Assembly: GCA_030427145.1 (NCBI GenBank)
Contig: JAUHWT010000006.1
Coordinates: forward strand, 1-64,000
Length of the DNA stretch: 64,000 nucleotides
Reading direction: 5' to 3'
Origin: Alphaproteobacteria bacterium
GTDB lineage: Bacteria; Pseudomonadota; Alphaproteobacteria; Rhodobacterales; Rhodobacteraceae
The position numbers were made by a program, and so were the translations under genes. Shown here piece by piece: positions 40,240 to 62,789 of this stretch (positions are counted from its first letter, which is position 1; each line of letters starts with the position of its first letter). The notes beneath the pieces were generated by a model. It was not told where the DNA came from and did not search any database. It saw only the letters and a program-made list of their open reading frames with translations.

Positions 40240-40285
40240 CCAGGGCTTACTGACGCGGCGCCTCGTTTTTTAGGGGACAACGCAC

Positions 40286-41871: not shown

Positions 41872-41888
41872 AACGAAAGGAAAATCCC

Positions 41889-42176: not shown

Positions 42177-42194
42177 ATTCCGGCGCAACGGGTA

Positions 42195-43097: not shown

Positions 43098-43264
43098 GGT
43101 CCCATCCGGCTTCCGGGCGGGGAAATACACGCCCAGCGGAAGTATGCCATGGGTGGCCCTGGGGCGTCGAGGTGTTTGGCCGTGTGTTCGGGGTGGACCG
43201 GGGCAGGGGCAATAACGAACGGGTCTGGCGTGCGGGTTGCGAAAGGCGATTGTGTGTGGACAGC

Positions 43265-43462
43265 GGGACATTTCAGCCGTTGGAAGGGGAGCCGTGCCTG
43301 CGCCGGACCGGGGGTGGCGCACAAAGCGGCCCAGTGGCGCGGTTTTATGGTGGAGTGTGCCTCTTCCGGTTGATCGCAGGGCAACTTTGACGGGCGCCGG
43401 CCCTTCGGGTCCGGTCCGGCGCAGGCACGGCGGGACCGGGGCCCCTTGTTCCGTGCCCGGTG
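43265..43462 (+). repeat. Family B palindromic element, copy B10, full length
   Basis: Full element from GGGACATTTCAGCCGTTGG through perfect arms to the terminal hairpin ending CCGTGCCCGG. The gap 43098-43625 holds only this and a promoter region near 43555. Confidence 0.92.
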
Positions 43463-43625
43463 GCGCGCGGCCACGTGGGGCTTTTGGGTCCGTTCCGGGC
43501 GTGGTGAAGAAGACTTGTAAGTAAGCTTGGAGCGGGACTAGACTCAGGCCTCGACAGAATTGACGCAAACATTTTTCGGCACGTGCCACCAGGCCCTGGC
43601 GTCGAGGCATGGAGAGGTGGGCGCC

Positions 43626-44663
43626 GTGACCGACAGATCTGGATGGCGCCTGGGCGGGTCGATTGCGTTTGCCTTTGCTTTGCTGGTCACTTTTGGCACC
43701 GCGCCAGGTCAGGGGGCGGCATCCTGTTTTGGTGGGACGGATGCGGTGCGTCATGCTTTGGGTGAGGATCCTGGGAGCCTGCCTGAGGGTGTGGGCTCGT
43801 TTGAGCTGTCGGACCCTGGAATGACCGGTCTTGCCGTGCATTACGTGCGTCCGGGGAGCTTTACTTCGACGTCTCCAATCCTGCTCGTCATTCCCGGGGC
43901 CGGGCGGAACAGCGACGACTACAGGGACGCCTGGATCGACGTGGCCTGCGCGTCGGGTACACTGGTGGCGGCTCTGGGGTATTCGGAAGAGACCCATGAC
44001 TTTGCCGCATATAACATGGGCGGGACGATCTCGAACCTGCAGTTTGACAACGCGGATTTTTCCCGTGTCTCAGAGACTGCGACAACAATCACGCTCGACG
44101 ATGCCGACATTCGGTTTGATGTGGTGACGAACCGCGCGGAGTGGATGTTCGATGATTTTGACCGGGTCTTTGAGCAACTGGTTCAGATGACGGGGTCCGG
44201 GCAGGACACATACGATATCTTCGGGCACTCCGCCGGGGGACAAATCCTGCACCGCTTCGCGGTTTTCGCACCACGATCGAAGGCCCGCGTGATCATCGCC
44301 GCGAATTCCGGGTTCTACACGTTTCCCGATCTTTCCCGGGCGCTGCCCACCGGGATGGAGGGGACGGGCCTGACGGAGACGGATCTGTCCCGGGCTTTCG
44401 GTGCGCGTCTCGTCCTGATGCTGGGTGCGCTGGACAATGACGACGGGGCTGGCGGGACTTTGCTGCACACACCTTACATCGATCAATCGCAGGGCCTTGG
44501 GCGTTTTGACCGGGGGCTGCGCTTCTTCGGGCATGCCCGGGAGGAAGCGGAAAGGATCGGGGCTGATTTTCACTGGCGGCTCGAGGTCATCGACCGGGTT
44601 GGACATGACTACCGGGCAATGAGTTCGGCCGCGGCGGATTACCTGATGGGTTTGAGTGACTGA
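43626..44663 (+). CDS. Secreted alpha/beta hydrolase (lipase/esterase-like)
   Basis: From GTG 43626 (GAGAGGTG upstream) the product has 345 residues. A signal peptide (RLGGSIAFAFALLVTFGTAPGQGAAS) precedes LLVIPGAGRNSDDYRDAWIDVACASGTLV and the nucleophile elbow IFGHSAGGQILHRFAV. A late VIDRVGHDYRAM gives the catalytic His; the Asp is probably in LVLMLGALDNDDGA. A conserved-looking N-terminal Gly-rich strand and secreted location suggest an extracytoplasmic esterase or polymer depolymerase. It ends 64 nt before the stop of the convergent SDR gene. Confidence 0.75.
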   Translation: MTDRSGWRLGGSIAFAFALLVTFGTAPGQGAASCFGGTDAVRHALGEDPGSLPEGVGSFELSDPGMTGLAVHYVRPGSFTSTSPILLVIPGAGRNSDDYRDAWIDVACASGTLVAALGYSEETHDFAAYNMGGTISNLQFDNADFSRVSETATTITLDDADIRFDVVTNRAEWMFDDFDRVFEQLVQMTGSGQDTYDIFGHSAGGQILHRFAVFAPRSKARVIIAANSGFYTFPDLSRALPTGMEGTGLTETDLSRAFGARLVLMLGALDNDDGAGGTLLHTPYIDQSQGLGRFDRGLRFFGHAREEAERIGADFHWRLEVIDRVGHDYRAMSSAAADYLMGLSD

Positions 44664-44727
44664 AAGATCGGATGGGCTCCCGCTGCGTCCCGTCTGACCG
44701 TTCGGGTTCGCGGGATGCCTGCCGCGA

Positions 44728-45573
44728 TCAGGGGTCTTTGGGGGCGGTCGCGTTGGGGTTCCTGTCGGCGGTGCGTCCGCGAAAATCGTCCATGCTGCTT
44801 GCCACGCCAAAGATGCGGTTGAGGACGAAGTCGAGCGCCCGCGTGGGTAACAGGCCGCGCAGCAGCGGCAGCAGGCGCACGATGGCGGGCATGTGGAGGA
44901 AAACAGCGTCGCGCTCCACGGCCCGCAGGATGCGGCGGGCCACGTCCTGGGGCTGAAGAAGCGGGATGAGGCGCGAGCGCACGCCCTCGAACATGCCGGT
45001 GTCGATGTAATAGGGCAGCACCGTGATCACACGCACGCCGGTGCCGGCGCGTTCCATCTCCTGCCGCAGTGAATCCGACCAGCCGGTCACGGCCCATTTG
45101 CTGGCGGCGTAGACGCTCATGTTGGGGTTTGAGACGAGCGCCGCCGCCGAGGCGATGTTGACCACGTGTCCCTGGCCCCGCGCGACCATGCCGGGCAGAA
45201 GCGCGCGCGTCAGATGCATCAGCGCGCCCGTGTTGATCGACAGCGTGCGGTCGATATCGGCGTGTTCGTGACCGAGGAACGGTTTGCCCACGACGATGCC
45301 CGCGTTGTTGATCAGCAGGTCGACCGGTGTTCCCCCGGCCTCCAGCCGACTGACGGCGGCGAGCACGGCCCCGGTGTCCGACACGTCCACCTGGTCGAAG
45401 ACGACAGCGCCCAGGGGATCGAGAGTTGCCCGCGCCGCCTCGATATTGGCCGTGCTCGCATCCCAGACGATCAGCTGTGCCGCGCCGCGTTCCAGGAGCA
45501 TTCGGCCCATCAGGAGCCCAATGCCCGAGGCGCCACCGGTGATCAGCGCCGTGCAACCCGCGATTTGTGTCAT
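44728..45573 (-). CDS. Short-chain dehydrogenase/reductase (membrane/retinol type)
   Basis: The product has 281 residues. Nucleotide site ALITGGASGIGLLMGRMLLERGA, NAG motif LLINNAGIVVGK, catalytic YxxxK in SVYAASKWAVTGW. After residue 210 the tail has SRLIPLLQPQDVARRILRAVERDAVFLHMPAIVRLLPLLRGLLPTRALDFVL, an amphipathic C-terminus common to SDRs that attach to lipids. It lies 23 nt downstream of the aldehyde dehydrogenase gene, and together they would oxidise an alcohol to the acid through the aldehyde. Substrate unknown. Confidence 0.87.
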   Translation of the reverse strand: MTQIAGCTALITGGASGIGLLMGRMLLERGAAQLIVWDASTANIEAARATLDPLGAVVFDQVDVSDTGAVLAAVSRLEAGGTPVDLLINNAGIVVGKPFLGHEHADIDRTLSINTGALMHLTRALLPGMVARGQGHVVNIASAAALVSNPNMSVYAASKWAVTGWSDSLRQEMERAGTGVRVITVLPYYIDTGMFEGVRSRLIPLLQPQDVARRILRAVERDAVFLHMPAIVRLLPLLRGLLPTRALDFVLNRIFGVASSMDDFRGRTADRNPNATAPKDP

Positions 45574-45596
45574 GTTCTGCCTCCCCCGGCCTGGCG

Positions 45597-47036
45597 TTAT
45601 TTCAGCATGAAGCGCACAAGCTGGTCGGCGATCCGGCCGAATGGCGCCATCGCGAGGTCGGCAAGGTTCCAGCGGCCCTGCGCGTAGATGCCTTTGGCAT
45701 GGCTGAACCGGCGGAACCCCTCGACGCCGTGATAGGCGCCGATGCCGCTTTCACCGACGCCGCCAAACGGCAGATCGTCCTGGGCGACATGCATGACGGT
45801 GCTGTTGATGCCCACGTTGCCTGACGTCGTTTCCGCGAGGACACGGTCCTGATCGGCGCCGGAGGGTCCGAACCAGTAGAGCGCGAGGGGACGCGGGCGT
45901 GCGTTGACGAAGAAGATCGCCTCATCAAGGGTCTGCCAGGTCACGACGGGCAGGATGGGGCCGAAGATTTCCTCCTGCATGACGTCCATGTCGGCGGTTG
46001 CATCAAGGATCAGGGTCGGCGCGATGGTCCGGGCACGGCCGGTCGCCTCGTCAGCCCTGTGGCCCACCGTCACGATCCTGGCACCTTTGGCCTTCGCATC
46101 CTCGATCAGGCCGTTGAGCCGGTCGAAATGCGCGTCGCTCACGATGGTGCTGTAGTCATCGCTGGCGGGTCCGTCGGGATAGAGGCGCCTGGTCGCGGCG
46201 TCGAATTCGGTCTCGAAGGCCTTCAGATCGTCCGCGTGCACCAGTGCGTAATCGGGCGCGACGCAGGTCTGGCCGGCATTGGCCAATTTGCCATAGGCGA
46301 TGCGTCGGGCGGCCCGCGCGTCGACCGCGCCGCGCGCGACGAGGGTGGGTGACTTGCCGCCCAGTTCCAGTGTCACGGGTGTCAGGTTGTCACTGGCCGC
46401 CCGCATGACGGCGCGCCCGACTTTGGTGCTGCCGGTAAACATCAGATGATCGAATGGCAGGGCGCTGAAGGCTTTCGCCACTCCGGCATCGCCGGTGACG
46501 ACCGCGACCCGGTCGCTGTCCCAGGTCTCCGACACAAGGCGCTGGATCAGGTCGCTGGTGCGCGGCGTCAGCTCGGACGGCTTCAACATCACACGGTTGC
46601 CCGCCGCCAGCGCGGTCGCGAGCGGCATCAGGGCGAGGTTCAGCGGATAGTTCCAGGGCGAGATGATCCCGATCACGCCGAGCGGCTGCCAGGCAACGCG
46701 GGCGTGGCCCATGCGGAACACGGCTGCGACGTGCCGCCGGTCCGGCGCCATGAAGCGGTGCAGGTTCCTCGAGAGGTATTTGATGCCTTCCACGGTCGGC
46801 ACGAGTTCCATGATCGCCGTTTCGTGGTGGGATCGGTGACCGAAATCGGCGGCCACCGCCTCCTCCAGGGCGCGGCGGTTGTTGACCAGGAGAGCCCGCA
46901 GTTTTGCGAGGTCCGCGCGCCGCGCCGCCAGATCCGGTGCGCCATCCCGCAGGAAGGCGGTCCGCTGTCTTTCAAGGATGGCAGCCGGGGTGGGTCCGGG
47001 CGTCGTTGCGGCGACGTGTACGCTGGTATGCTTCAT
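45597..47036 (-). CDS. Coniferyl-aldehyde-dehydrogenase-type aldehyde dehydrogenase
   Basis: From ATG 47036 the product has 479 residues. Catalytic Cys in NAGQTCVAPDYALV, catalytic Glu in VTLELGGKSPTLV, NAD site FTGSTKVGRAVM. The segment MGHARVAWQPLGVIGIISPWNYPLNLALMPLATALAAGNRVMLKPSE and the short C-terminus with the final hydrophobic helix (DLAMAPFGRIADQLVRFML) are those of the CALDH/long-chain group, which often associate with the membrane. It sits immediately upstream of the SDR gene in one operon. Confidence 0.9.
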   Translation of the reverse strand: MKHTSVHVAATTPGPTPAAILERQRTAFLRDGAPDLAARRADLAKLRALLVNNRRALEEAVAADFGHRSHHETAIMELVPTVEGIKYLSRNLHRFMAPDRRHVAAVFRMGHARVAWQPLGVIGIISPWNYPLNLALMPLATALAAGNRVMLKPSELTPRTSDLIQRLVSETWDSDRVAVVTGDAGVAKAFSALPFDHLMFTGSTKVGRAVMRAASDNLTPVTLELGGKSPTLVARGAVDARAARRIAYGKLANAGQTCVAPDYALVHADDLKAFETEFDAATRRLYPDGPASDDYSTIVSDAHFDRLNGLIEDAKAKGARIVTVGHRADEATGRARTIAPTLILDATADMDVMQEEIFGPILPVVTWQTLDEAIFFVNARPRPLALYWFGPSGADQDRVLAETTSGNVGINSTVMHVAQDDLPFGGVGESGIGAYHGVEGFRRFSHAKGIYAQGRWNLADLAMAPFGRIADQLVRFMLK

Positions 47037-47203
47037 ATCCACCTTCCATGTAGACAGTGGCAACTTACCCGTATCCAGTGACTCATGTAGGCGGTATCAA
47101 CATGATGAACGTTAGTGGAAACCGGCAAAAACGCCATCAAACCGGCGTTGAGCACGGTTTTTCAGTGGCTTCAGATGTGGCGCACGCCAAACGGCAGGCA
47201 TCC

Positions 47204-47255: not shown

Positions 47256-48035
47256 TCAGAAGCGGAAGTTGAGACCGATCCGGCCGATGACGCCCGCGTT
47301 GTCGAATTCGTAGTCGATGGCCTGGCCCGGGAAGTTGGTCGGGTCGGTGGCGTGGACCGTGGCGTCCTTCAGGTCGTAGCTGAGAATTTCAGCCTTGATG
47401 CTGACGGCCTCGGTCATGCGGTGCTCGACACCGGCGCCGAGGACGTAGCCGAAGCGCGTGCCGGAGGTGTTCCAGTCGGGCGAGGTGTAGCCCAGTTCGG
47501 TCATCTCGAGCGAGAAGCTGTTGGTGACGCGGCCCGCGGCAATACCGCCGGTGGCATAGGCCAGGGTGTCGCCGAAGGAATAGCCCAGGCGAACACGGGC
47601 GGTGGCAAGGCCGTCAAGCTCCGTGCGGTAGCCGGTGACGGTGTTCACGCCGTTGAAAATGGGATCGGGGTTGGGATCGACGCGGGCAAAGCCGTGTTCA
47701 ATGTCGGAATTTCCGAAGGACAGGTCCAGTTCAACACCGGCCACCCAGGCGTCGTTGATCTGGTGGTTGTAGCCAATGGTCACACCACCGATCAGGGAGG
47801 TGTCGGACCCGTCGATGCTGTCGGGAAAGAGGCCGTTGCTGACGTCCAGCGTGATCAGGTCGCCCTCGTAGTCGCCGAGCGAGGCCTCGCCGTCGGATCG
47901 CAGGGCGCCTGCGGTCACACCGCCGTAAAGCCCGCTCCAGGTCGTTGGAGCCCGCCCCATGGAAGAGGCCGTATCATCGGCGGCCAGTGCAGGGGTCGTT
48001 ACCAGCAGTACGGCCGCAACAGTTCGAATAAACAT
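47256..48035 (-). CDS. Outer-membrane beta-barrel protein (RopB/Omp25-like)
   Basis: The product has 259 residues. Signal peptide VAAVLLVTTPALAAD is cleaved near residue 19; the barrel begins TTWSGLYGGVTAGA and includes GVTIGYNHQINDAWVAGVELDLSFG and ATARVRLGYSFGDTLAYATGGIAAG. It ends IGRIGLNFRF with the C-terminal Phe signature of Bam substrates. This is the eight-strand small-porin layout of alphaproteobacteria. It is divergent from the signalling locus by 227 nt of AT-rich DNA. Confidence 0.88.
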   Translation of the reverse strand: MFIRTVAAVLLVTTPALAADDTASSMGRAPTTWSGLYGGVTAGALRSDGEASLGDYEGDLITLDVSNGLFPDSIDGSDTSLIGGVTIGYNHQINDAWVAGVELDLSFGNSDIEHGFARVDPNPDPIFNGVNTVTGYRTELDGLATARVRLGYSFGDTLAYATGGIAAGRVTNSFSLEMTELGYTSPDWNTSGTRFGYVLGAGVEHRMTEAVSIKAEILSYDLKDATVHATDPTNFPGQAIDYEFDNAGVIGRIGLNFRF

Positions 48036-48262: not shown

Positions 48263-49717
48263 GTGTCCGTAGTGGAAACAGAAAACATGTCGATATTTGC
48301 CCGGGCCTGGCAACGGGTTGCCGATTACTTCGTGCCGCGCCACCTGGCGGACAAAAAGGACAAGAACAACCGCGCCCGGATGTTCCTCATCAGCCATACG
48401 CTGGGACCGGTCATGGGCAACTCGGTGCCCATAGCGCTGTTCGCGGTTGATCCGACGCCTGGCTATGAGGTTGTTGTTCTGGCACTCAGCATCAGTCTGT
48501 TCTGGGCTTTTCCGTTTCTTTTGAAGGCGGGGCTTGGGTATAACAAGCTGGTTCTGCTGTCCGTGATCAACCTGAATTTCGCGATCCTGTGGGCGTGTTA
48601 CCATTATGGCGGGGTGGCTTCGCCCACGCTGACCTGGGTGCTGATCATTCCGATTCTGTCACTGTTCTATGTGGGGGGCGAGCGCCGGTTGCAGCCCTGG
48701 CTGCTGGCGGTGACCAGTGCGATGTTTGTGCTGTTTTTTGCCGCATGGACCTGGTTCCGGCCGCCGCCGAATGACATTCCGGAGACGGCCATGCTGGCGC
48801 TTGGGGCGGTCTCGACGATTGCGACGCTGTGTTATGTGGCTACGATGGCCGTTTACTACGCGCGGGTGTTCGATTCCGGCGTTGATCTTGAGAACGAGGT
48901 CAAACGGCGGCGCGCGATGGCGGACGAATTGCGCCGGGCGGTGGCCCAGGCGCACCGGACCGGATCGGCAAAGTCGGAGTTTCTGGCGCGCATGAGCCAT
49001 GAGATCCGCACGCCGCTCAATGCGATTATCGGATATGGCCAGATCCTTCAGGAAGAGGCGGAGGAGCTTGAGGACAAAATGCTGGCCGAGGATGTGGCGC
49101 GCATTCTGGATGCGGCGCATTACCTCGTTCGTCTGATCAACATGGTGCTCGATCTGTCCAAGATCGAGGCGGGCCGGATGAAGTTTGACCAGAAGCCGCA
49201 CAAGGTGACCACGCTCATTGAGACCGCGCTGAAGCAGCGGGAGGCCTCGATCGCGGAGCATGGCAGCTCCCTGAAACTTCACATTCATACCGACCGCAAA
49301 GCGGTGGAGATTGACGAGCACCGGTTTTTGCAGGTGGCCGACAGCATTCTTGAGAACGCGATCATGCATTCGGATGCGGGTGAGATTACCGTGACCGTGC
49401 GCACGGAGACGCAGGCCGAGGGTCCGGAGATGCTGCGCGTTGCGATTGCCGACAGTGGCAAGGGTATTCCGCCCGATGTGATCGATACGCTGTTCCAGAC
49501 CTTCAAGACCGGGGAGAATGCCGCGGATGGCCGCTATGGCGGGACGGGGCTGAACCTGACGGTCTGTTACCAGCTGTGCCGGGCAATGGGCGGGACCATC
49601 GAGGTTCGGAGCGAGCCGGGCCAGGGAGCCGTGTTTACCATCGTGCTGCCGGTGACGCCGCCCATGCCGATTGATGACGCGGGCGTTGCCGGGAGTGGAG
49701 AGCTCAACGCGGCATGA
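48263..49717 (+). CDS. Six-TM sensor histidine kinase 1
   Basis: From GTG 48263 (GGGAG 8 nt upstream) the product has 484 residues. Six hydrophobic segments lie at about 40-62, 67-86, 95-115, 122-136, 146-164 and 174-197. A CYHYGGVASPTLTW motif occurs at the end of the third. A coiled linker leads to the H-box FLARMSHEIRTPLNAIIGYGQIL with His246. The ATPase part has ADSILENAIMHSDA (N-box), IADSGKGIPP (G1) and RYGGTGLNL (G2). No receiver domain is fused, so phosphate probably goes to the downstream REC-GGDEF-EAL protein. The oxoamine synthase starts 162 nt after it, and the second kinase is a homolog with the same sensor layout. Confidence 0.87.
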   Translation: MSVVETENMSIFARAWQRVADYFVPRHLADKKDKNNRARMFLISHTLGPVMGNSVPIALFAVDPTPGYEVVVLALSISLFWAFPFLLKAGLGYNKLVLLSVINLNFAILWACYHYGGVASPTLTWVLIIPILSLFYVGGERRLQPWLLAVTSAMFVLFFAAWTWFRPPPNDIPETAMLALGAVSTIATLCYVATMAVYYARVFDSGVDLENEVKRRRAMADELRRAVAQAHRTGSAKSEFLARMSHEIRTPLNAIIGYGQILQEEAEELEDKMLAEDVARILDAAHYLVRLINMVLDLSKIEAGRMKFDQKPHKVTTLIETALKQREASIAEHGSSLKLHIHTDRKAVEIDEHRFLQVADSILENAIMHSDAGEITVTVRTETQAEGPEMLRVAIADSGKGIPPDVIDTLFQTFKTGENAADGRYGGTGLNLTVCYQLCRAMGGTIEVRSEPGQGAVFTIVLPVTPPMPIDDAGVAGSGELNAA

Positions 49718-49879
49718 GGAAACACACGCCATTTCAGTGGGATGTGCGTGCGCCCGGCCGTCATGGCGGGGCGCAGGCATTTGTTAACCATCGTCTCTAT
49801 TACCGCGATGTGGAGCCAAAAATTTACCGGAAATTTGGGAATGGACTTCACATTGGTCCAGGTAAATTTGGGGGTAGCG

Positions 49880-51232
49880 ATGGCTGGAAAATTTATTGAT
49901 GGCGTCCCGGTGGACGCCCTTAAGGGAAGTATGCGGGATTTCCGTGTTCCTGTAGGTGCAGACCTTCTGGAACGGACCGCGGGGTTCTATGAATGGCAGG
50001 ACGCGCGTCGTCAGAGCGGCACCTGGCCCTTTTCACGTTCAACCGAGGCGGGACCGGCTGCGAGCTGTGAGATCCGCGACGATGCCGGCAATCTGAGCCG
50101 GGGCGTGAATTTCGCGAGCCAGGATTATTTGAGCCTGTCCTCGCATCCGGCGGTTCTGGCCGCGGCGAAGGACGCCATCGACACGATGGGGGTTCATTCG
50201 GCGGGATCGCCCGCGCTGGTGGGCAACACCTCGACCTCAGTAGCGCTTGAGGCGCGGATTGCCGAATTCCTGCAGATGAAGGAGGCGCTCCTTTATCCGA
50301 CAGGATGGGCCGCGGGATTTGGCGTCATCAAGGGTCTGGTCCGGGATCAGGACTATATCGTGATGGACGCGCTCTCGCATGCCTGTCTGCAGACCGGTGC
50401 GCAGGCCGCGACGAAGAACGTGATGCTGTTCCGGCACAACAATGTTGACCACTGCCGCCAGCAGCTGGCCACGATCCGGGCGCGTGACCCGAATGCGGGT
50501 ATCATGGTGGTGACCGAGAGCCTGTTCTCGATGGACAGTGACACGCCGGACATTGCCGCTCTGCAGAAGCTGGCGCATGAGTACGGTGCGACGCTGATGG
50601 TCGATGTGGCCCATGACCTGGGCAATATCGGCGAGGACGGTACGGGCCATATCGGCAAGCAGAACATGCTGGGTCAGGTGGACCTGGTCATGGGCAGCTT
50701 CTCGAAGACCTTTGGCTCGAACGGCGGTTTCGTGGCGATGAATGACCGCGCGGTGAAGGAATACCTGCGCTTCTACAGCCCGTCCTGCACGTTCTCGAAC
50801 GCCCTGTCGCCCGCCCAGGTGGCGGCGGTGACGAAGTCGCTGGACATCATTCAGTCCGATGAAGGTGCGAAGCTGCGCAACCGGCTGATGTACAACATCT
50901 GCATGCTGCGCGAGCAGCTGCGCGATCGCGGCATGGATGTCTATGGCGATCCGTCGGCCATCGTCTGCGTCAAGACGGGTGATGAGGCCCTGGCGCGCAT
51001 GGCGGCGCGTGAACTGCCCGAGCTGGGCCTGGTGGCCAACCTCGTGGAGTTCCCGGCGGTGGGCAAGGGGCTTGCCCGTTTCCGCCTTCAGGTCATGGCC
51101 GCGCATACGGAGGACGAGATCGAAGCCGCTGTTGAGCGGATCGGCACGGCCATGGAAACCGGTCGCCGTCTGCTGGAGGAGAACAACCATGTCTCCGGCG
51201 GCGTTCGGGAAATCCGGAAACTGGCCGGGTAA
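49880..51232 (+). CDS. Alpha-oxoamine synthase (PLP), CqsA/LqsA- or SPT-like
   Basis: From ATG 49880 (GGGGGT upstream) the product has 450 residues; the longer frame to 49742 was rejected. After an N-terminal extension of about 75 residues the AOS fold begins: FASQDYLSLSSHPAVLAAA, GSPALVGNTSTSVALEARIAEFLQ, DALSHACLQTGAQAATKNVMLF, then TESLFSMDSDTPDIAALQKLAHEYGATLMVDVAH and the PLP Lys276 in GSFSKTFGSNGGF. The standard DEAH/DESH motif reads DVAH. AOS enzymes condense an acyl-CoA with an amino acid (KBL, AONS, SPT, ALAS) or make hydroxyketone signals (CqsA, LqsA). The flanking sensor kinases favour the signalling role; SPT cannot be excluded. Confidence 0.75.
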   Translation: MAGKFIDGVPVDALKGSMRDFRVPVGADLLERTAGFYEWQDARRQSGTWPFSRSTEAGPAASCEIRDDAGNLSRGVNFASQDYLSLSSHPAVLAAAKDAIDTMGVHSAGSPALVGNTSTSVALEARIAEFLQMKEALLYPTGWAAGFGVIKGLVRDQDYIVMDALSHACLQTGAQAATKNVMLFRHNNVDHCRQQLATIRARDPNAGIMVVTESLFSMDSDTPDIAALQKLAHEYGATLMVDVAHDLGNIGEDGTGHIGKQNMLGQVDLVMGSFSKTFGSNGGFVAMNDRAVKEYLRFYSPSCTFSNALSPAQVAAVTKSLDIIQSDEGAKLRNRLMYNICMLREQLRDRGMDVYGDPSAIVCVKTGDEALARMAARELPELGLVANLVEFPAVGKGLARFRLQVMAAHTEDEIEAAVERIGTAMETGRRLLEENNHVSGGVREIRKLAG

Positions 51233-51245
51233 AATATCACTGTTC

Positions 51246-51269
51246 GCCACGGCCCATTGGGGCCGTGGC
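51246..51269 (+). terminator. Strong hairpin after the oxoamine synthase gene
   Basis: GCCACGGCCC and GGGCCGTGGC form a 10-bp stem with a 4-nt loop, 13 nt after the stop. The T-tract is weak (GGGTCTTACG), so it may be a partial terminator or an mRNA stabiliser before kinase 2. Confidence 0.6.
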
Positions 51270-51304
51270 GGGTCTTACGTTAACATTGCATACGGGAATT
51301 CGCT

Positions 51305-52762
51305 GTGTCCGGGCAAATCGACATGAATGATCAGAGGGTCATCGACCGTATTGTCGGTTGGTTTATCCCTGACGACGCGGTTCGCGGGCGGACGCAGCGC
51401 GAGATGGCGCGGACCTTCGTGTTTACCCATCTGTTCGGGCCGGCCATCGCGCAGCCGATGTGCCTTTATCTCTATTATGTGTCGCCGGAGGTTAACTACC
51501 CGCTGGTGGTGATGCTCCTTGGCGTGTGCAGTTTCTGGCTTTTGCCATTTGTCCTGCGCTGGACGAGCAGTATCGAGCTGGCGGCGTTTCTGTCGTTCCA
51601 GGCGCTGGCGGCGACGTCGCTGTTCGGGGCGTTCCACTATGGCGGGTTTTCCTCGCCGTTTTTGCCCTGGTTTGTGGTCAGTCTTCTGCTGGGGCTGTTT
51701 TACCTGTCAAAGCGGTCATCCGCGGTGCTGGCGCTGTTTGCCTTCGACATTCTGGTTTTTCTGGCGCTGATCCTGTGGAAGGGTCTGGATCATCAGATCC
51801 CGATTGATGACCTCCAGATCATTGGCTGGCTCTCGATCACGTCGGCGACGGTCTACATGACATGGATGGCGCTCTACTATTCGCGCATCATCGGGCTGCG
51901 TTCGGAGCTTGAGGTGGAAAGCGCGCGGCAGCGGGCGACGGCGGTGGAGCTGGAAAAGGCCCGTGCAATTGCGGAGGAGATTGGCCGCAACAGGTCGCAG
52001 TTCTTCGCGAAGATGAGCCATGAGCTGCGCACGCCCCTGAACGCCATTATCGGCTATTCCGACATTCTGCTTGAGGACTGCGAGGACAGCGGTCCGGAGA
52101 TGGAGCAGCGGAGCCGCGACGTGAACCGGATCAACGCGGCCGGGCGGCATCTTCTGTCGCTGGTGGCCGAAGTGCTCGATGCCAATGAGATCGAGAATGA
52201 CGTGATGAGCGTCGATATCGGTCAGTTCACAATCGGGCAGCTTTGCGACGAGGTGGTCGCGACGGTTGCGCCCATGGTCGAAAAGAACGGCAACACGTTC
52301 AACTTCGTCTGCCAGAACCGCGACTACGTTCTGAACACTGACGCCAAGAAGCTTCGGCAGATTTTGCTCAACCTGCTGAGCAATGCGGGCAAGTTCACGC
52401 AGAGCGGAACCGTGCGGCTGGAGCTTTATGTGGAGTTCCACACCCATGACGATCACCTCTGTGCGGTGGTCAGTGACACGGGGATTGGCATTTCGGCGGA
52501 GGCCCTGCCGCGTCTGTTCAAGGATTACGAGCAGGCCGAACAGTCCACGTTTAACCGGTTTGGCGGCACCGGCATTGGTCTGGCGCTGAGCCGCAGGCTG
52601 GCCATTCTGCTGGGCGGCGACATCTCGGTGACGAGCCGGCTGGGGCAGGGGTCGCGGTTTGCGCTCTCCGTGCCGGCGCAGATCCACGAGGTCACCGAAG
52701 ACGGCGACGATGACGACCCGGATGGCGAGACCGTCAAGGATACGGGCGGGATGGCAGCATGA
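51305..52762 (+). CDS. Six-TM sensor histidine kinase 2
   Basis: The product has 485 residues from GTG 51305 (ATG six codons later is an alternative). Six hydrophobic segments at about 38-59, 67-84, 92-114, 119-133, 139-157 and 172-193 mirror kinase 1, including the same AFHYGGFSSPFLPW motif after segment 3, and SELEVESARQRATAVELEKARAIAEE forms the coiled coil. The H-box is KMSHELRTPLNAIIGY with His239; N-box LLNLLSNAGKFT, G1 VVSDTGIGIS, G2 FGGTGIGLAL. The C-terminal tail is very acidic (EDGDDDDPDGE). No receiver domain is present. It lies 72 nt after the synthase and 67 nt before the response regulator. Confidence 0.87.
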   Translation: MSGQIDMNDQRVIDRIVGWFIPDDAVRGRTQREMARTFVFTHLFGPAIAQPMCLYLYYVSPEVNYPLVVMLLGVCSFWLLPFVLRWTSSIELAAFLSFQALAATSLFGAFHYGGFSSPFLPWFVVSLLLGLFYLSKRSSAVLALFAFDILVFLALILWKGLDHQIPIDDLQIIGWLSITSATVYMTWMALYYSRIIGLRSELEVESARQRATAVELEKARAIAEEIGRNRSQFFAKMSHELRTPLNAIIGYSDILLEDCEDSGPEMEQRSRDVNRINAAGRHLLSLVAEVLDANEIENDVMSVDIGQFTIGQLCDEVVATVAPMVEKNGNTFNFVCQNRDYVLNTDAKKLRQILLNLLSNAGKFTQSGTVRLELYVEFHTHDDHLCAVVSDTGIGISAEALPRLFKDYEQAEQSTFNRFGGTGIGLALSRRLAILLGGDISVTSRLGQGSRFALSVPAQIHEVTEDGDDDDPDGETVKDTGGMAA

Positions 52763-52829
52763 CGATTTGTTATCAAACATCCCGTATGAAGACGAACACT
52801 GTACCGCTTTGGGTAGAAGGTGGACTGAA

Positions 52830-54665
52830 ATGATACCGAATAAAGGCACATCTTCGGCCGAACCGGCCGCCGCCCCAACACCTGCGGATGATGCGGAGAC
52901 CAAGCCCAGGGTCCTCGTTGTGGATGACGTGTTCGACAACCGCGACATCCTGACCCGGCGGCTGGTCCGTCGTGGCTTTGACGTGGTTGAGGCCTCGGGC
53001 GGTCATGAAGCCCTCGAGAAGATTGAGGCTGAGGAGTTCGATATCGTTCTTCTCGACATCATGATGCCGGACATGAGCGGCAACGAGGTTCTTGAGACCG
53101 TGCGGAGGACAAAATCCGCGCGGGATCTGCCGGTCATTATGGTCACGGCCAAGAGCCAGAGCGAGGACGTGGTGCAGAGCCTGAGCCTCGGGGCGAATGA
53201 CTATGTCACCAAACCGGTGGACTTTGTCGTGGCGCTGGCGCGGATCAACGCGCAGCTTGAGGGCAAGAAGCATGCGGACAGCGAGCGTGCCGACAAGATC
53301 AGAATGGAGGCCGAAGCGAAGGCGCAGAAACGGGAAACCGACGAGAAGCTGCATTACCTCGCGTATCACGACGCCCTGACCGGGCTGATGAACCGCACGG
53401 CGTTTCGCGAGATGATCAGTGATGCGCTGCTTGAGAGCGGCAAGCCGGATCAGGAGCCGACGGTTCTGTTTATCGATCTGGACCGGTTCAAGGCGGTCAA
53501 CGATGTGCACGGGCATGAGATCGGCGACAAGCTTTTGATGGCCGTGGCGGAGCGGCTGAGTGAAATCGCCGGGACCGGTGCGAAAATCGCACGGCTGGGT
53601 GGCGACGAGTTTGGCGCGTTTCTGTTCGAGGACAGGGTGAACAACCCGAATGCGGGATTTGAACTGGCCGAGCGGATCGTTGAGGCCGCCAACCGTCCGT
53701 TTGTGGTGGATGGCTCTCCGTTTCAGATCGGCGCAAGCTGTGGCGTGGCGCGGGCGTCGGACTGTGAGAACGAGTTGGAGCAGATGCTCAAGGGCGCGGA
53801 CCTCGCGATGTATGAGGCCAAAGCGGCGGGCCGGGCGCGCCCGGTTGTGTTTGAGCCGCGGATGCTGGAGGAACAACGCGAGCGCAACGCCCTGGAGGTG
53901 GATCTGCGCCGGGCCATCGACAGCGATGAGCTGGAGATCCATTATCAGCCGCTGGTCAACACCGAGACAAACGCGATCACGACCTTTGAGGCTCTCGTGC
54001 GCTGGAACCACCCGGAGCGGGGCCTGATCCCGCCGGACCGGTTTATCGGGATCGCCGAGGATACCGGGATCATCATTCCGCTTGGGCGGAAGATTTTGCG
54101 CATGGCCTGTACGGAGGCGTTGTCCTGGCCGGATGAGATCCGGGTAGCGGTCAACCTGTCGCCGTTGCAGTTCCGGGACCCGGAGCTGATGTCGAGCATT
54201 GAGGCCGTGCTGGAGGAAACCGGGCTTCCGGCGGAACGCCTGGAACTGGAGATCACGGAAACGGCGCTGCTGGAAGCGGGTGAGACCAACCTCGATATCC
54301 TGCGCAACATCCGGGGCATGGGCATTCGCGTGTCGATGGATGACTTCGGGACCGGCTATTCCTCGATGAGCTATCTGCAGAATTTTGAGTTCGACAAAAT
54401 CAAGATAGATCAGCGGTTTGTCCGGGATCTCAAAAACGGTCACAACGGGGCCGCGATCATCAAGGCCATCATTGATCTTGGCGTGAATGCAGGCATAGAT
54501 ACCTCTGCGGAAGGCGTGGAGACCAATGACGAGGTCGAGTCGATCAAGTCCCAGGGCTGCGTTGAGATGCAGGGTTATTTCTTCAGCCGTCCGGTAAATT
54601 CCGCCGGGGTAATTGGTTTCATTGAGAAGTATCTGGGCTGGGGTCGGAAATCCGATCAGGACTAG
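52830..54665 (+). CDS. Response regulator with GGDEF and EAL domains (REC-GGDEF-EAL)
   Basis: From ATG 52830 (AAGGTGG upstream) the product has 611 residues. REC: VLVVDDVFDNRDIL with phospho-acceptor Asp76 in DIVLLDIMMPD and TAKSQSEDVVQSLSLGANDYVTKP. GGDEF: DALTGLMNRTAFREMI, FIDLDRFKAVNDVHGHEIGD, intact GGDEF at 257-261. EAL: LEIHYQPLVNTETNAITTFEALVRWNHPE with EAL at 387-389, ELEITET and MDDFGTGYSSMSYLQ (loop 6 with DDFGTGYS). Both catalytic centres look active, so the protein could make or degrade c-di-GMP. As the only receiver nearby it is the expected output of the two kinases. Confidence 0.9.
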   Translation: MIPNKGTSSAEPAAAPTPADDAETKPRVLVVDDVFDNRDILTRRLVRRGFDVVEASGGHEALEKIEAEEFDIVLLDIMMPDMSGNEVLETVRRTKSARDLPVIMVTAKSQSEDVVQSLSLGANDYVTKPVDFVVALARINAQLEGKKHADSERADKIRMEAEAKAQKRETDEKLHYLAYHDALTGLMNRTAFREMISDALLESGKPDQEPTVLFIDLDRFKAVNDVHGHEIGDKLLMAVAERLSEIAGTGAKIARLGGDEFGAFLFEDRVNNPNAGFELAERIVEAANRPFVVDGSPFQIGASCGVARASDCENELEQMLKGADLAMYEAKAAGRARPVVFEPRMLEEQRERNALEVDLRRAIDSDELEIHYQPLVNTETNAITTFEALVRWNHPERGLIPPDRFIGIAEDTGIIIPLGRKILRMACTEALSWPDEIRVAVNLSPLQFRDPELMSSIEAVLEETGLPAERLELEITETALLEAGETNLDILRNIRGMGIRVSMDDFGTGYSSMSYLQNFEFDKIKIDQRFVRDLKNGHNGAAIIKAIIDLGVNAGIDTSAEGVETNDEVESIKSQGCVEMQGYFFSRPVNSAGVIGFIEKYLGWGRKSDQD

Positions 54666-54725
54666 CACTACGCCCCGTTCCGGGCGCGCCATGTCCGGGT
54701 CGGCGGAGCGCGGGGGTTGGTGCGG

Positions 54726-55925
54726 ATGGCTGCACACACAGGCTACGACGTGGTGATTGTGGGCGGTGCGATCATGGGCGCGTCGCTGGCGTGGTTTCTG
54801 GCCAGTGATCCGGATTTTGACGGACGCGTTCTGGTTGTGGAGCGGGATCCGACCTACGCGAATTCATCCACCATGCACACCACGAGCTGTATCAGGCAGC
54901 AGTTTTCCCATGCCCTGAACGTACGGATTTCGCAGTTTGGGGCGGAATTCATCACGGGTCTTCGCGGTTTTATGGGCGGGGATGATCGGGTGCCGGAGAT
55001 TGCGATCCGGAATTTTGGCTACATGTATCTGGCGGGCTCGGAGGCACGGGCGGATGAACTGCGGCGCGACAGGGACGTTCAGGTGGCGGCGGGTGCGGCG
55101 ACGCGACTGATGACGGCCGATGAGATAGCGGCGGCGTATCCGTTTTACCGGCTGGATGACGTGGTGCTGGGATCAATCAACACGGTCGATGAGGGTTACT
55201 GGGACGCGACGGCGGTGTTTGACTGGCTGCGCCGCAAGGGGCGGGAGCAGGGGGTCGAGTACCTGACCGGCGAGGTTGTGGCGATGACGCGCGGAGCCGG
55301 CGGGCGGCGGGTGGAGAGTGTGACCCTGGCTTCCGGCGAGGTGATTTCCTGCGGGCAGGTGGTTAATGCCTCGGGGCCGCGGGCGGCGCGGACGGCCGCG
55401 ATGGCGGGTATTGATCTGCCGGTGGAGCCGAGGAAACGGTATTCGTGGATTTTTCAGGCGGAGACGCCGCTGGACCGGGAGCTGCCGCTGACGGTGGATC
55501 TGTCAGGCGTTCATGTGCGCGAGGCGGGCGGCGGGACGTATCAGTGCGGCGGGCACGGGCCGGAGGACCCGGCGGTGGAGCCGGATGATTTCGCGATGGA
55601 TCAGTCGCTCTGGGAAGAGCATGTCTGGCCCGCGCTCGCCTGGCGGATCCCGCAATTTGAGGCCATTAAGGTCACGTCGGAATGGGCCGGGCAGTACGCG
55701 TGGAACGTGCTGGACCGGAATGCGGTTTTGGGACCGCATGACGAGGTCGGGAATTTCTGGTTCATGAACGGGTTCTCGGGGCACGGGCTGCAACAGGCCC
55801 CGGCGATGGGGCGGGGCCTGGCGGAGCTTTTGGTGCATGGGGAGTTCCGGAGCCTGGATCTGTCGCCGTTCGGGTTTGGGCGAATACGCGAGGGGCGGGG
55901 GATCGTGGAGGCGGCGATTATTTGA
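54726..55925 (+). CDS. FAD-dependent oxidoreductase (DadA/sarcosine-oxidase family)
   Basis: From ATG 54726 the product has 399 residues. The FAD dinucleotide motif is VVIVGGAIMGASLAWFLASDPDFDGRVLVVERD. NSSTMHTTSCIRQQFSHALNVRISQFGAEF follows, and the catalytic-domain strand GAAGGRRV and late MNGFSGHGLQQAPAMGRGLAELL are typical of monomeric sarcosine oxidase/D-amino-acid dehydrogenase relatives. A Ser/Arg-rich start is common for roseobacter homologs. It sits 60 nt after the response regulator in the same direction, but a functional link is not evident. Substrate: a secondary or D-amino acid, inferred. Confidence 0.83.
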   Translation: MAAHTGYDVVIVGGAIMGASLAWFLASDPDFDGRVLVVERDPTYANSSTMHTTSCIRQQFSHALNVRISQFGAEFITGLRGFMGGDDRVPEIAIRNFGYMYLAGSEARADELRRDRDVQVAAGAATRLMTADEIAAAYPFYRLDDVVLGSINTVDEGYWDATAVFDWLRRKGREQGVEYLTGEVVAMTRGAGGRRVESVTLASGEVISCGQVVNASGPRAARTAAMAGIDLPVEPRKRYSWIFQAETPLDRELPLTVDLSGVHVREAGGGTYQCGGHGPEDPAVEPDDFAMDQSLWEEHVWPALAWRIPQFEAIKVTSEWAGQYAWNVLDRNAVLGPHDEVGNFWFMNGFSGHGLQQAPAMGRGLAELLVHGEFRSLDLSPFGFGRIREGRGIVEAAII

Positions 55926-55993
55926 GGGCGGACCCATTGAAACGTCTTCGCCCGGCGGCACCGCCGGGGAATGTGCGGGACGCGAGGCGCTTT

Positions 55994-56222
55994 CGTTCAC
56001 ACGGACCAAAAAAGTGTTTTTTTAAGCGCTCGGCCGGGTATTGGGCAGAGGTCCGGCAACCATCCCCGGCGTGTCGGCACGACACGCCATGCCCGACTTT
56101 CCCCCCGGGAGGGCATCCGCGACGTCGGCCCCTGCTCAATGGTTGTGGGAGTTGGGGCGACCCGCGTTGGCCGCCCGGTTCGCAGCCCTCCCAAAGTCGG
56201 GCATGGCGCGTCGTGCCTCGGG
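55994..56222 (+). repeat. Family A palindromic element, copy A4, full length
   Basis: CGTTCACAC module at 55994, an A-tract, GGGTATTGGGCA, hairpin GGCGTGTCG-GCA-CGACACGCC and the long arms. The gap 55926-56305 holds this only. Confidence 0.88.
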
Positions 56223-56305
56223 TAAGTGACTCCCCTCAGGGACGGGGCGGAACGTAAATGGGATGGCGCACGCGCTCACCGGACACCACCCATGTCAGTT
56301 TTGCC

Positions 56306-56746
56306 TCAGCTCTCCGGACGCACCACGTAGACGGAGCATTCGGAGTGGCGGACGATGCGCGAGGCGTTGGGGCCGAGGAGGTAGTCCTCCAGGTCGGCCT
56401 TGTGCGCGCCCACCACGATCAGGGACGCGCCGGAGACCTCGGCGGTTTTGATGACCTCCTCATAGGCGCGGCCCGTTGAGATGACGTGGCGCACCTTCGC
56501 GTTTGCCTCTGGACCGATGGCCTGGGTGACAAGGTTGTTCAGGAGCACCTTCGCCTGGTTCACCATTTCCTCGTGGTGACTTTCGGAGAAGAAGGTCGCC
56601 ACCGGACTGAGGCCGAAATCGGGAACCACCGCAATGACATCGAGCTGCACCCCGTCGAGATCCGCCAGTTTGGCGGCTCTCTGAATGGTGGGGATGTCGT
56701 CGGTGCCGTTGCTGATGTCGACGGCGCAGAGAACGGAACCGCTCAT
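56306..56746 (-). CDS. Universal stress protein UspA family
   Basis: The product has 146 residues. It opens VLCAVDISNGTDDIPTIQRAAKLADLDGVQLDVIAVVPDF and ends with the ATP-binding-type SGASLIVVGAHKADLEDYLLGPNASRIVRHSECSVYVVR, where G-x2-G-x9-G(S/N) spacing is readable as GAHKADLEDYLLGPNAS. The start overlaps the TRAP permease stop by 4 nt (ATGA). A UspA partner (TeaD) regulates TRAP uptake in Halomonas, and this gene probably has the same job. Confidence 0.88.
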   Translation of the reverse strand: MSGSVLCAVDISNGTDDIPTIQRAAKLADLDGVQLDVIAVVPDFGLSPVATFFSESHHEEMVNQAKVLLNNLVTQAIGPEANAKVRHVISTGRAYEEVIKTAEVSGASLIVVGAHKADLEDYLLGPNASRIVRHSECSVYVVRPES

Positions 56747-59349
56747 GCGGGAACCTCCTGACGGGTCATGCGGGCGCGCTGCAGCATGACGACAAGGGCC
56801 AGGGCGATCAGGGCCGGAATGAACATGAGTTCCTTGGGCATCTGATCGGCCGGGGCCTGGACCTGCGTGATCTGAACCGGCTCGTCGAGATAGAAGTCGA
56901 AGCTGCTCAGGGCGTCGGCATAGGGGGACGAGAAGGAGGGTTCATCCATCCTCATCACACCGTCCTCCGGCAGCAGGAGCAGTCCGGATGCTTCCAGGCG
57001 TTCCTCAGGCGTGGCGCCCTCGGGACGGACCACGAGGGTCGTCTCAACAATGTCGCCGGTGTCGAAATCCGGGCCGGCAATGGTCAGACGCAGGCGTCCG
57101 TCCTCCGGCGCGTTACCGAGGGCCTCGGCGAAGTTGACCGGATCGATCTGGTCAAACGGCGGCTGGATGCGGTCCATGAAGAAATCCGGACGGAAGAGCG
57201 CGAAGGAAATCAGCACAAGTGCGACACTCTCGTAGATCCGGTTTTTCGTCAGGAACCAGCCCATTGTGCCGGCGGTGAAGATCAGAATGGCGATGGACGC
57301 GGTCACGAAGACCAAAATCCCCTGCGCCCATCCCACATTGATCAGCAGAAGATCGGTGTTGAAGATGAACACGAAGGGCAGGGCCACGGTACGCAGCGAG
57401 TAGAAGAACGCCACGAAACCGGTCCGGATCGAGTCGCCACCGGAGACGGCGGCGGCCGCGAAGGAGGCGAGACCCACGGGCGGGGTCACGTCCGCCATGA
57501 TGCCGAAATAGAACACGAAGAGGTGCACGGCGATCAGCGGCACGATCAGGCCCGACTGCGCGCCCAGTTCGACCACAACACCCGCCATCAGGGACGAGAC
57601 CACGATGTAGTTCGCGGTGGTGGGCAGGCCCATGCCGAGGATGAGGCTGAGAAGCCCCACCATCACGAGCATCAGGATCAGGTTGCCGCCCGAGAGGAAC
57701 TCGACGAGGTCGGCCATGACCTGGCCTACACCCGTGAGCGTCACGGTGCCCACGATCACGCCCGCCGTGGCGGTGGCGAGACCGATGCCGATCATGTTGC
57801 GCGCACCGTCGATCAGGCCCTGGATCAGGTCCAGGACACCCTCACGGAAGGCGTTGGCGGTCTGGTTCTCACCGCGGAAAATGGACTTCAGCGGCTTCTG
57901 GGTCAGCAGGATGACGAAGAGCAGCATGGTCGCCCAGAAGGCCGAGAGGCCCGGGGATTTCTGCTCGATCATCAGGAAGTAGACCAGAACCACAATGGGC
58001 AGCAGGTAGTAGAGACCGGATTTGTAAATCTCGGCAACGACCGGCAACTCAACGTCTTCGGCGTTGGGATCATCCGGCTCCAGATCCGGCACACCGGCGG
58101 CGAGCCAGAGCAGGGCCACATAGGCCACAAAGATCAGGAGGGCCAGAACCCAGCTGGCGCTGTCGCCCACCGCGGCGGAAATCCAGCCGACCGGGTATTT
58201 GACACCGTAGCAGAGCAGGGCAAATCCGACGAAGAACGCGGCCATGCCACCGATGGTTTTACCCATGGACACAACGCGGTTGCCCAGCGTCGGCATGTTG
58301 TTTTTCACGGCCTCGAGATGAACGATGTAGACCAGCGCGATGTAGGAGATCGCGGCGGGAAGGAAGGCGTGGGTGATGACCTCCACGTAGGAGATGCCCA
58401 CATATTCCACCATGAGGAAGGCCGCGGCGCCCATAACGGGCGGCATAATCTGGCCGTTCACGGAGCTGGCCACCTCGACGGCGCCGGCTTTCTCGGAGGT
58501 AAAGCCCACACGTTTCATCAGCGGGATGGTGAAGGTACCGGTGGTGACCACATTGGCGATGGAGGAGCCTGAGATAAGCCCGGTTGCGGCGGAGCCCACC
58601 ACGGCGGCCTTGGCCGGGCCGCCCTTGAGGTGGCCGAGCGCGCCGAACGCCATCTTGATGAAGTAGTTGCCCGCGCCCGCCTTGTCGAGCAAAGCGCCGA
58701 AGAGCACGAAGAGGAACACGAAACGGGTGGACACGCCGAGCGCGATGCCAAACACGCCCTCCGAGGTGATCCACATGTGGCTCATGGCCTTTTGCAGCGA
58801 CGCGCCTTTCCAGCGGATCACGTCGGGCACCCAGGCGGAGGAGCCGAAGAAGACATAAGCGAGGAAAATGGTCGCGATGATCGCCATGGCCGGACCGAGC
58901 GCGCGGCGGGCGCCCTCAAAGAGCAGGATCAGGCCGGCAAGGGCGAACCATTTGTCGACATTGTCGGCAAGGCCACCGGCGGCGACGATTTTTTCGTAGA
59001 AGATAAAGCCGTAGAGCGAGACAAACACGCCAAAAATAGCGAAGACCCAGTCCTGGATTGGAATGTAGTCACGGGGGCTCGATTTGAGCGCAGGGTAGGC
59101 CATGAAGGCCAGGAATACAGCAAAGGCCAGGTGAAACTGGCGGGAGTTGTTGACCACGTCGCCTGGCAAAACGTAGTTCGCGAGCGGTGATGCAAGCAGC
59201 ACCTGAAAAATGGACCAGACCACGGCCACGACCGCGAGCAGCAGTCCGACCGATCCGGTGGGATTACGGGAGCCGGCGTCGGAGGAGGAAACGAGCTCCT
59301 GAAGCTCCTCCTCACTGAGCGCGCGGTTTTCCTTGTTGTTACTGGCCAT
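56743..59349 (-). CDS. TAXI-TRAP transporter fused 4TM/12TM permease with C-terminal DUF3394-like domain
   Basis: The product has 868 residues. The N-terminal four-helix (DctQ-like) part spans about 28-175, followed by the large DctM-like domain (GASIANVVTTGTFTIPLMKRVGF-type and FVFYFGIMADVTPPVGLASFAAAAVSGGDSIRTGFVAFFYSLRTVALPFVFIFN blocks). After about residue 700 a soluble DUF3394-like extension (LRLTIAGPDFDTGDIVETTLVVRPEGATPEERL) leads to one final helix. Na+-driven uptake with a TAXI binding protein is the family function. The UspA gene overlaps its end, and the binding-protein gene precedes it. Confidence 0.9.
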   Translation of the reverse strand: MASNNKENRALSEEELQELVSSSDAGSRNPTGSVGLLLAVVAVVWSIFQVLLASPLANYVLPGDVVNNSRQFHLAFAVFLAFMAYPALKSSPRDYIPIQDWVFAIFGVFVSLYGFIFYEKIVAAGGLADNVDKWFALAGLILLFEGARRALGPAMAIIATIFLAYVFFGSSAWVPDVIRWKGASLQKAMSHMWITSEGVFGIALGVSTRFVFLFVLFGALLDKAGAGNYFIKMAFGALGHLKGGPAKAAVVGSAATGLISGSSIANVVTTGTFTIPLMKRVGFTSEKAGAVEVASSVNGQIMPPVMGAAAFLMVEYVGISYVEVITHAFLPAAISYIALVYIVHLEAVKNNMPTLGNRVVSMGKTIGGMAAFFVGFALLCYGVKYPVGWISAAVGDSASWVLALLIFVAYVALLWLAAGVPDLEPDDPNAEDVELPVVAEIYKSGLYYLLPIVVLVYFLMIEQKSPGLSAFWATMLLFVILLTQKPLKSIFRGENQTANAFREGVLDLIQGLIDGARNMIGIGLATATAGVIVGTVTLTGVGQVMADLVEFLSGGNLILMLVMVGLLSLILGMGLPTTANYIVVSSLMAGVVVELGAQSGLIVPLIAVHLFVFYFGIMADVTPPVGLASFAAAAVSGGDSIRTGFVAFFYSLRTVALPFVFIFNTDLLLINVGWAQGILVFVTASIAILIFTAGTMGWFLTKNRIYESVALVLISFALFRPDFFMDRIQPPFDQIDPVNFAEALGNAPEDGRLRLTIAGPDFDTGDIVETTLVVRPEGATPEERLEASGLLLLPEDGVMRMDEPSFSSPYADALSSFDFYLDEPVQITQVQAPADQMPKELMFIPALIALALVVMLQRARMTRQEVPA

Positions 59350-59414
59350 GCTACCCCCTGTGGCGCCGACTGAGTTGTCCGGTGGGTTTTCCCATCCGGT
59401 GATAATTGGGAAGG

Positions 59415-59435
59415 AGGGGCGGTTTGGCCGCCCTC
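59415..59435 (-). terminator. Intercistronic hairpin in the TRAP operon
   Basis: GGGCGG and CCGCCC (59417-59422, 59428-59433) form a short stem between the binding-protein and permease genes, probably lowering downstream expression or protecting the upstream message. No T-tract. Confidence 0.4.
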
Positions 59436-59454
59436 TCCCTGCGGTTATCGAACC

Positions 59455-60426: not shown

Positions 60427-60463
60427 CAATAAGCTCCCATATCTGATGCGGTTAATTGTGTTT

Positions 60464-61327: not shown

Positions 61328-61365
61328 ACATCTGCCCTCCCCAAGGCGTTCAGTACGGCAAAAAG

Positions 61366-61412
61366 TGTTTCATCTGTTTCAAGCCTAGTCAACCGGAGAA
61401 TCGTATGTTTCA
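61366..61412. promoter_or_regulatory. Three TGTTTCA direct repeats in the RpiR/aminotransferase divergent gap
   Basis: TGTTTCA at 61366, 61375 and 61406; the first two are 9 nt apart. Direct repeats of this kind are plausible RpiR sites, though short. Confidence 0.4.
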
Positions 61413-61447
61413 ATAAGGACATATGGGGCGGCATAAGGACGGGGTTG

Positions 61448-62767: not shown

Positions 62768-62789
62768 GGGTTTGGGGGCCTTAGCCTTG

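Follow-up and report, generated by a model that had tools for sequence, protein, structure and literature searches.

In a 64,000-nucleotide (nt) stretch of an alphaproteobacterial genome of the family Rhodobacteraceae (positions 1 to 64,000 of contig JAUHWT010000006.1; hereafter the window), four consecutive genes encode a histidine kinase (HK1), an alpha-oxoamine synthase (AOS), a second histidine kinase (HK2) and a response regulator in which a receiver is fused to GGDEF and EAL domains (REC-GGDEF-EAL). The gene content, domains and signature residues of this locus were observed directly, as was the recurrence, in two families of the class, of such an AOS together with a receiver and a kinase bearing the same six-transmembrane (six-TM) sensor domain, which we call HYGG after its sequence motif. 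Alpha-hydroxyketone quorum sensing is known from CqsA/CqsS of Vibrio and LqsA/LqsS of Legionella. We consider it probable that the four genes form a self-contained autoinducer circuit, that is, quorum sensing of the hydroxyketone type with another AOS lineage and another sensor family; such a circuit would work like the Cqs/Lqs systems, while its proteins belong to neither family by the tests run. No such cluster was described in the titles or abstract openings of the open-licence PMC papers searched.

The open reading frame (ORF) coordinates confirmed the four-gene, same-strand order reported in an earlier note made from the sequence alone: HK1 (48287-49717), AOS (49880-51232), HK2 (51305-52762, GTG start) and REC-GGDEF-EAL (52830-54665) all lie on the + strand, with intergenic gaps of 162, 72 and 67 nt; the start of HK1 is ambiguous (48167, 48263 or 48287). 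Both kinases consist of a six-TM HYGG sensor followed by HisKA and HATPase_c domains, and Pfam upheld the statement that neither carries a receiver. Their phospho-acceptor histidine as well as their N and G boxes were present on inspection, and they are paralogues with 30% identity over 454 amino acids (aa), TM part included. A motif common to the two sensors had been noticed correctly, but its spacing is HYGG-x-x-SP (HYGGVASP at 48602-48625 in HK1 and HYGGFSSP at 51635-51658 in HK2, both +) rather than HYGG-x-SP; in the family alignment, an invariant Trp stands four residues past the HYGGxxSP loop. The proposed six-TM layout appeared in the structural model of the HK2 sensor (mean pLDDT 86.9), which begins with a short N-terminal helix, continues with six long ones and was extended to HK1 by alignment, whereas plain hydropathy gave only five or six overlapping peaks. 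With HisKA/HATPase domains (Pfam) behind a six-TM sensor (model for HK2, alignment for HK1), both have the predicted architecture of the CqsS/LqsS kinases.

The AOS (450 aa) is a pyridoxal phosphate (PLP)-dependent enzyme of the Aminotran_1_2 family (Pfam), and its catalytic residues, including the PLP lysine, line up on inspection with those of KBL, BioF, SPT and ALAS. The REC-GGDEF-EAL protein matched Response_reg, GGDEF and EAL in Pfam; the receiver motif and the GGDEF and EAL signature residues were present, and the RxxD inhibitory site was not found by pattern. These features mark it as a putative cyclic di-GMP (c-di-GMP) response regulator.

The earlier note had named restriction of the gene order to this genome as a refuting outcome, and the arrangement was found in other genomes too. 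An AOS search of 394 family genomes gave seven genomes at E 1e-60 or better, with the window type only in the own genome and G048, and a search of 385 class genomes gave six (own, G934, G943, G1029, G1092 and G671). Plasmids yielded relatives in Pseudorhodobacter turbinis (75% identity) and Salipiger (50%), while single-protein scans found one distant relative in genome contigs and none in viral contigs. In G048 (locus L012), a divergent HK1, an outer-membrane barrel gene, AOS, HK2 and REC-GGDEF-EAL lie within 7.3 kb; in P. turbinis (L018), the barrel gene, AOS, HK2 and a bare receiver stand together, and HK1 (L113) is located 10 kb off on the same 1.6-Mb replicon. Identities to the window proteins in L012 and P. 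turbinis, respectively, are 72% and 75% for AOS, 47.7% and 48.9% (L113) for HK1, and 53.1% and 59.0% for HK2, whereas the regulator is matched over 585 aa in L012 (53.8%) and in the receiver only in L018 (55.8% over 120 aa). Transposase-like ORFs flank both HK1 and the AOS cluster in P. turbinis (by eye), and insertions may have split this cluster and removed the GGDEF-EAL part. In another family, G934 and G1092 carry the AOS, a HYGG kinase and receivers, one receiver gene of G1092 overlapping the AOS end by 4 nt. The neighbourhood comparison across two families of the class supports an AOS-linked six-TM kinase circuit with recurrence in relatives.

A receiver adjoins the HYGG kinase in all seven genomes or records that have both a window-type AOS and a HYGG kinase. 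The earlier proposal that the output is c-di-GMP is only partly supported: the window and G048 have REC-GGDEF-EAL proteins, and in the other five the receiver stands alone. An EAL-like ORF was found about 8 kb from the AOS in L075.

Affiliation of the synthase

The earlier note had likened the AOS to CqsA and LqsA, and membership in that family was not supported: the protein scored 189 bits on the CqsA/LqsA model NF005526, against a curated cut-off of 428. Its orthologues in L012 and L018 (184 and 183 bits) also remained below the cut-off, and the model does not single out the window AOS, given that, among the matches listed, 36 from 198 family genomes scored higher and none exceeded the cut-off. 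Assignment to the housekeeping families was rejected by the curated cut-offs as well: BioF (291 bits, cut-off 426), KBL (255 of 460 and 229 of 493), SPT (250 of 640, 247 of 500 and 192 of 670) and ALAS (203 of 339).

In a tree of 60 rows (quick search, SH-aLRT support only), the window AOS shared a group (97%) with its seven close orthologues and a single AOS from Streptomyces, and same-family paralogues together with the Salipiger plasmid AOS joined at the next level (99%). This window-type clade stands apart from KBL, SPT, ALAS, BioF and CqsA/LqsA, and a joint clade with CqsA/LqsA was rejected by the approximately unbiased (AU) test (p 0.0086). Over the aligned core columns, the window AOS is 20-26% identical to the CqsA/LqsA types, 26-33% to the named housekeeping types, from which its gene neighbours differ too, and 52-72% to the seven orthologues. 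The clustering with SPT, KBL or AONS that had been named beforehand as a possible outcome did not occur, by either the cut-offs or the tree.

It could still be asked whether the AOS is simply the BioF of the cell or another housekeeping oxoamine synthase, as bioF is its best NCBIfam model and the AOS search of the own genome returned otherwise only two proteins, which score as KBL and ALAS. We give this very little credence, because its 291 bits lie below not only the cut-off but also the scores of the own KBL (351) and ALAS (343) on the same bioF model, its branch in the tree is separate, and no biotin gene was found among the five neighbouring window genes that were scanned with Pfam.

More distant AOS paralogues showed other surroundings. 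Those of G296 (L014), G361 (L015) and G297 (L016) lie near YcaO genes (confirmed by Pfam except in L015, where the reading is by eye), in L015 also near a BTAD activator, which suggests a separate type of biosynthetic cluster. Homologous regulators (25% identity, E 3e-12) precede the AOS in G324 (L013:11064-12221, -) and on the Salipiger plasmid (L019:7783-8913, +); the latter has a LuxR-type GerE domain and the former no Pfam match, and the AOS product is possibly read there by a cytoplasmic regulator. L013 also contains two window-related AOS genes in near-tandem (7135-8478 and 9586-11010, -) with a nitroreductase-like gene between them (by eye).

The HYGG sensor and its synthase partners

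A profile of the sensor domain (A2; the N-terminal domain, built from seven kinases of AOS loci) matched only HK1 and HK2 within the own genome (E 1e-5). Among genomes not chosen by AOS presence, those with a match at E 1e-15 numbered 2 of the 374 scanned in the family and 3 of the 190 scanned in the class, and both counts contain the own genome. The four distinct positives (own, G048, G934 and G771) all have a HYGG kinase adjoining an AOS (three of three without the own genome). Altogether, 15 HYGG kinases were found over all eight domain-bearing genomes or records, and 10 have an AOS at a distance of at most 1.2 kb; other conserved partners of the kinases, which the earlier note had also allowed for, did not emerge, the AOS being the recurrent one. 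Conversely, seven of the eight genomes or records with a window-type AOS carry the HYGG domain, which was found in none of the five genomes and the one plasmid record with AOS paralogues of 38-52% identity (E 0.001). A tblastn search of plasmids with two sensor-domain queries returned P. turbinis only for one query and no match for the other. The HYGG kinases L111 (G943), L112 (G1029) and L114 (one of those of G934) have, within the kinase ORF itself, a stretch that resembles a receiver, and another receiver gene follows each of them.

The same domain also accompanies synthases of the known type. Each of G771, G934 and G1092 has a HYGG kinase gene in divergent orientation to the gene of an AOS that scores above the 428-bit CqsA/LqsA cut-off (489, 461 and 453 bits, respectively), and these three synthases form the sister group of 15 CqsA/LqsA reference sequences in the tree (joint branch 100%). 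Both this pair and a window-type AOS are present in G934 and G1092. The HYGG subfamily of the CqsA/LqsA-type pairs includes one unlinked kinase (L114), and the HYGG subfamilies match one another with hhalign probabilities of at least 99.5%. As a positive control, 398 phylum genomes gave 15 loci above the CqsA/LqsA cut-off, and every one of them has a kinase next to the AOS or one gene away. The pairing of one sensor family with two AOS lineages is our main ground for reading the HYGG domain as a sensor of AOS products, and these comparisons support such a role.

Two further explanations bear on this pairing. The kinases may belong to an ordinary two-component system for some other cue (redox, lipid or light), with the AOS as a chance neighbour or a metabolic target; their HisKA/HATPase_c domains are generic, AOS and kinase lie apart in two genomes, and no AOS lies near 5 of the 15 HYGG kinases. 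We nevertheless regard this as quite improbable, since the domain and the AOS, both rare, occur together in seven of eight genomes or records, and all four open-scan positives have an AOS adjacent to a HYGG kinase. At a background of 2 in 189, the chance that five of six AOS-chosen genomes carry the domain is about 8e-10, or about 5e-6 for three of four genera, with relatedness partly removed and one of the six, G934, included in the background sample.

The main rival holds that the product of the AOS is a membrane lipid or a secondary metabolite, built for example from acyl-ACP, and that the kinases report on the membrane or metabolite within the same cell rather than on the population, with the output still passing through the receiver protein. 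The best evidence for it comes from G671, where a gene for an acyl carrier protein (ACP; PF00550; L077:6906-7157, -) lies directly upstream of the window-type AOS, a hint of an acyl-ACP donor; in addition, a Streptomyces clavuligerus relative (L020) stands beside ACP- and ketosynthase-like genes (by eye), and the window AOS lies outside the CqsA/LqsA clade. On the other hand, no ACP or ketosynthase was seen beside the AOS of the window, G048 or P. turbinis (ORF lists, by eye), and the same sensor domain is elsewhere paired with an AOS over the CqsA/LqsA cut-off. On this evidence we consider the lipid or metabolite explanation unlikely.

Flanking features of the locus

The in-depth examination of the window covered about 43-56 kb and revealed two features absent from the earlier note. 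An outer-membrane beta-barrel gene (47256-48035, -; PF13505, Pfam E 1.1e-13) is divergent from HK1, and its homologues in L012 (43% over 270 aa) and L018 (55% over 227 aa) immediately precede the AOS. Between AOS and HK2 lies a hairpin (51243-51272, +) of 13 pairs, the outer two G-U, with a loop of 4 and no T run; the 86-nt stretch folds at -31.8 kcal/mol (z -2.02), and 5 of 200 shuffles fold equally well or better. It is possibly an attenuator or mRNA-end structure.

A short-chain dehydrogenase gene (44728-45573) and an aldehyde dehydrogenase gene (45597-47063) were considered as encoding signal-maturing enzymes, as an excerpt of PMC3376566 reports a dehydrogenase step for CAI-1. They were set aside because BLAST of L012 (G048) and L018 (P. 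turbinis) against the window ORFs gave no homologue of either.

The G+C content of the cluster is 60.3%, with flanks at 64.9% (30000-47000) and 63.2% (54700-64000); elsewhere, it dips to 0.479 at window positions 2001-4000, the other 2-kb steps ranging from 0.575 to 0.681. A sigma-70 promoter scan stayed at chance level (2 found, 2.0 expected). An empty-site comparison with G130 of the same genus found no AOS (E 1e-60), no sensor (E 1e-15) and neither flanking protein (E 1e-100 and 1e-60) there.

Proposed circuit and known systems

For the autoinducer circuit we propose the following course. From the chemistry of its family, the AOS would condense an amino-acid-type substrate with an acyl thioester to give a lipophilic signal of the aminoketone or hydroxyketone type. 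This product would enter or cross membranes, perhaps aided by the neighbouring outer-membrane barrel, and could bind in the six-TM HYGG bundles of HK1 and HK2, as the link of the domain to two AOS lineages and its predicted fold suggest. Binding would shift the kinase/phosphatase balance of both proteins, and both, judging from gene order and intact domains, would act on the REC-GGDEF-EAL receiver and so set c-di-GMP synthesis against breakdown. The phosphotransfer, the identity and export of the product and the sign of the c-di-GMP change are steps that we infer. More tentatively, we suggest that quorum sensing by oxoamine synthases has a second branch in Alphaproteobacteria, one that was assembled independently. 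In this branch, HYGG receptors would form a new six-TM family that reads the products of two non-sister synthase lineages (the CqsA/LqsA-type partner and the window-type AOS), and in some Rhodobacteraceae it would be wired directly to c-di-GMP turnover via two parallel receptors.

Several observations weigh against the autoinducer circuit. As the AOS is outside the hydroxyketone-synthase family, its product may be of another kind. Five of the 15 HYGG kinases (HK1 of P. turbinis and one each in G934, G1092, G943 and G1029) had no AOS by BLAST in the 3.6-14 kb examined around them, the weakest HYGG match among these being that of G1092 (L107). In G943 and G1029, a long distance separates the AOS from the single HYGG kinase, which is followed by a receiver gene, and G671 has a window-type AOS with no HYGG domain (E 0.001) and the ACP gene instead. 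The fusion of the receiver to GGDEF-EAL is confined to two of seven cases, and BLAST found no receiver like that of the window in the three loci, of 13.5 kb each, that hold the CqsA/LqsA-type pairs. The hairpin might uncouple the expression of AOS and HK2. Moreover, profile A2 is biased towards AOS-linked kinases by its construction, and the sample sets are small and related. Finally, the HYGG and CqsS/LqsS sensor profiles matched at decoy level (hhalign probability 0.35%, E 0.17; reversed and permease decoys 0.08-0.94%), and no PDB match of the HYGG or the CqsS model reached E 0.001.

If true, the proposed circuit would extend oxoamine-derived signalling beyond the Cqs/Lqs family, and searches by CqsA or CqsS homology would miss such systems. 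The system would be compact, with a single synthase, a pair of paralogous receptors and an enzyme acting directly on c-di-GMP, and would let the division of labour between receptors be tested, and one receptor family with two synthase lineages offers a natural experiment on ligand recognition by six-TM bundles.

Among known systems, clusters of the lqsA-lqsS type are described for Ralstonia, Nitrococcus, Burkholderia and Polaromonas in an excerpt of PMC3376566. CqsS-like six-TM domains from alphaproteobacteria, among others, are mentioned in an excerpt of PMC4821796 and may or may not include HYGG domains. The likeness of the window locus to CqsA/CqsS and LqsA/LqsS lies in an AOS near a six-TM histidine kinase, in a similar predicted layout of the sensor (an N-terminal helix plus six helices in the models) and in a Trp at the beginning of helix 4 that is invariant in the HYGG as well as the CqsS/LqsS sensor alignments. 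Head-group specificity of CqsS is tied to W104 and S107 in the excerpt of PMC3376566, to which the invariant HYGG Trp offers an analogy only. The differences are that the window AOS falls in another clade, that the HYGG sensor has no detected sequence homology to CqsS/LqsS and no PQPYEN motif, and that two kinases without receivers are combined here with a cluster receiver fused to GGDEF-EAL. Membership of the kinases in the CqsS/LqsS family was not supported, the sensor profile similarity not exceeding that of decoys; a single HYGG subfamily aligned with CqsS/LqsS over 156 colinear columns at a probability of 2.2% (hhalign).

Among solved structures, the HYGG model best matched the six-TM anchor of the adenylate cyclase Rv1625c (7yzk_A; TM-score 0.58, probability 1.00, 12% identity); the match, at E 0.081, is not significant, and the anchor belongs to a cyclase, not a kinase. 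For the CqsS model, ImcA came first (TM-score 0.52) and Rv1625c (7yzk_A) second with a poor fit (TM-score 0.30, E 0.86). A CqsS sensor grafted onto Rv1625c brought the cyclase under the control of CAI-1, according to an excerpt of PMC4821796. The HYGG kinase pairs of G771, G934 and G1092 share with the window locus a homologous six-TM sensor and an adjacent AOS; they differ from it in an AOS over the CqsA/LqsA cut-off, a divergent gene pair and 13.5-kb loci without a REC-GGDEF-EAL homologue.

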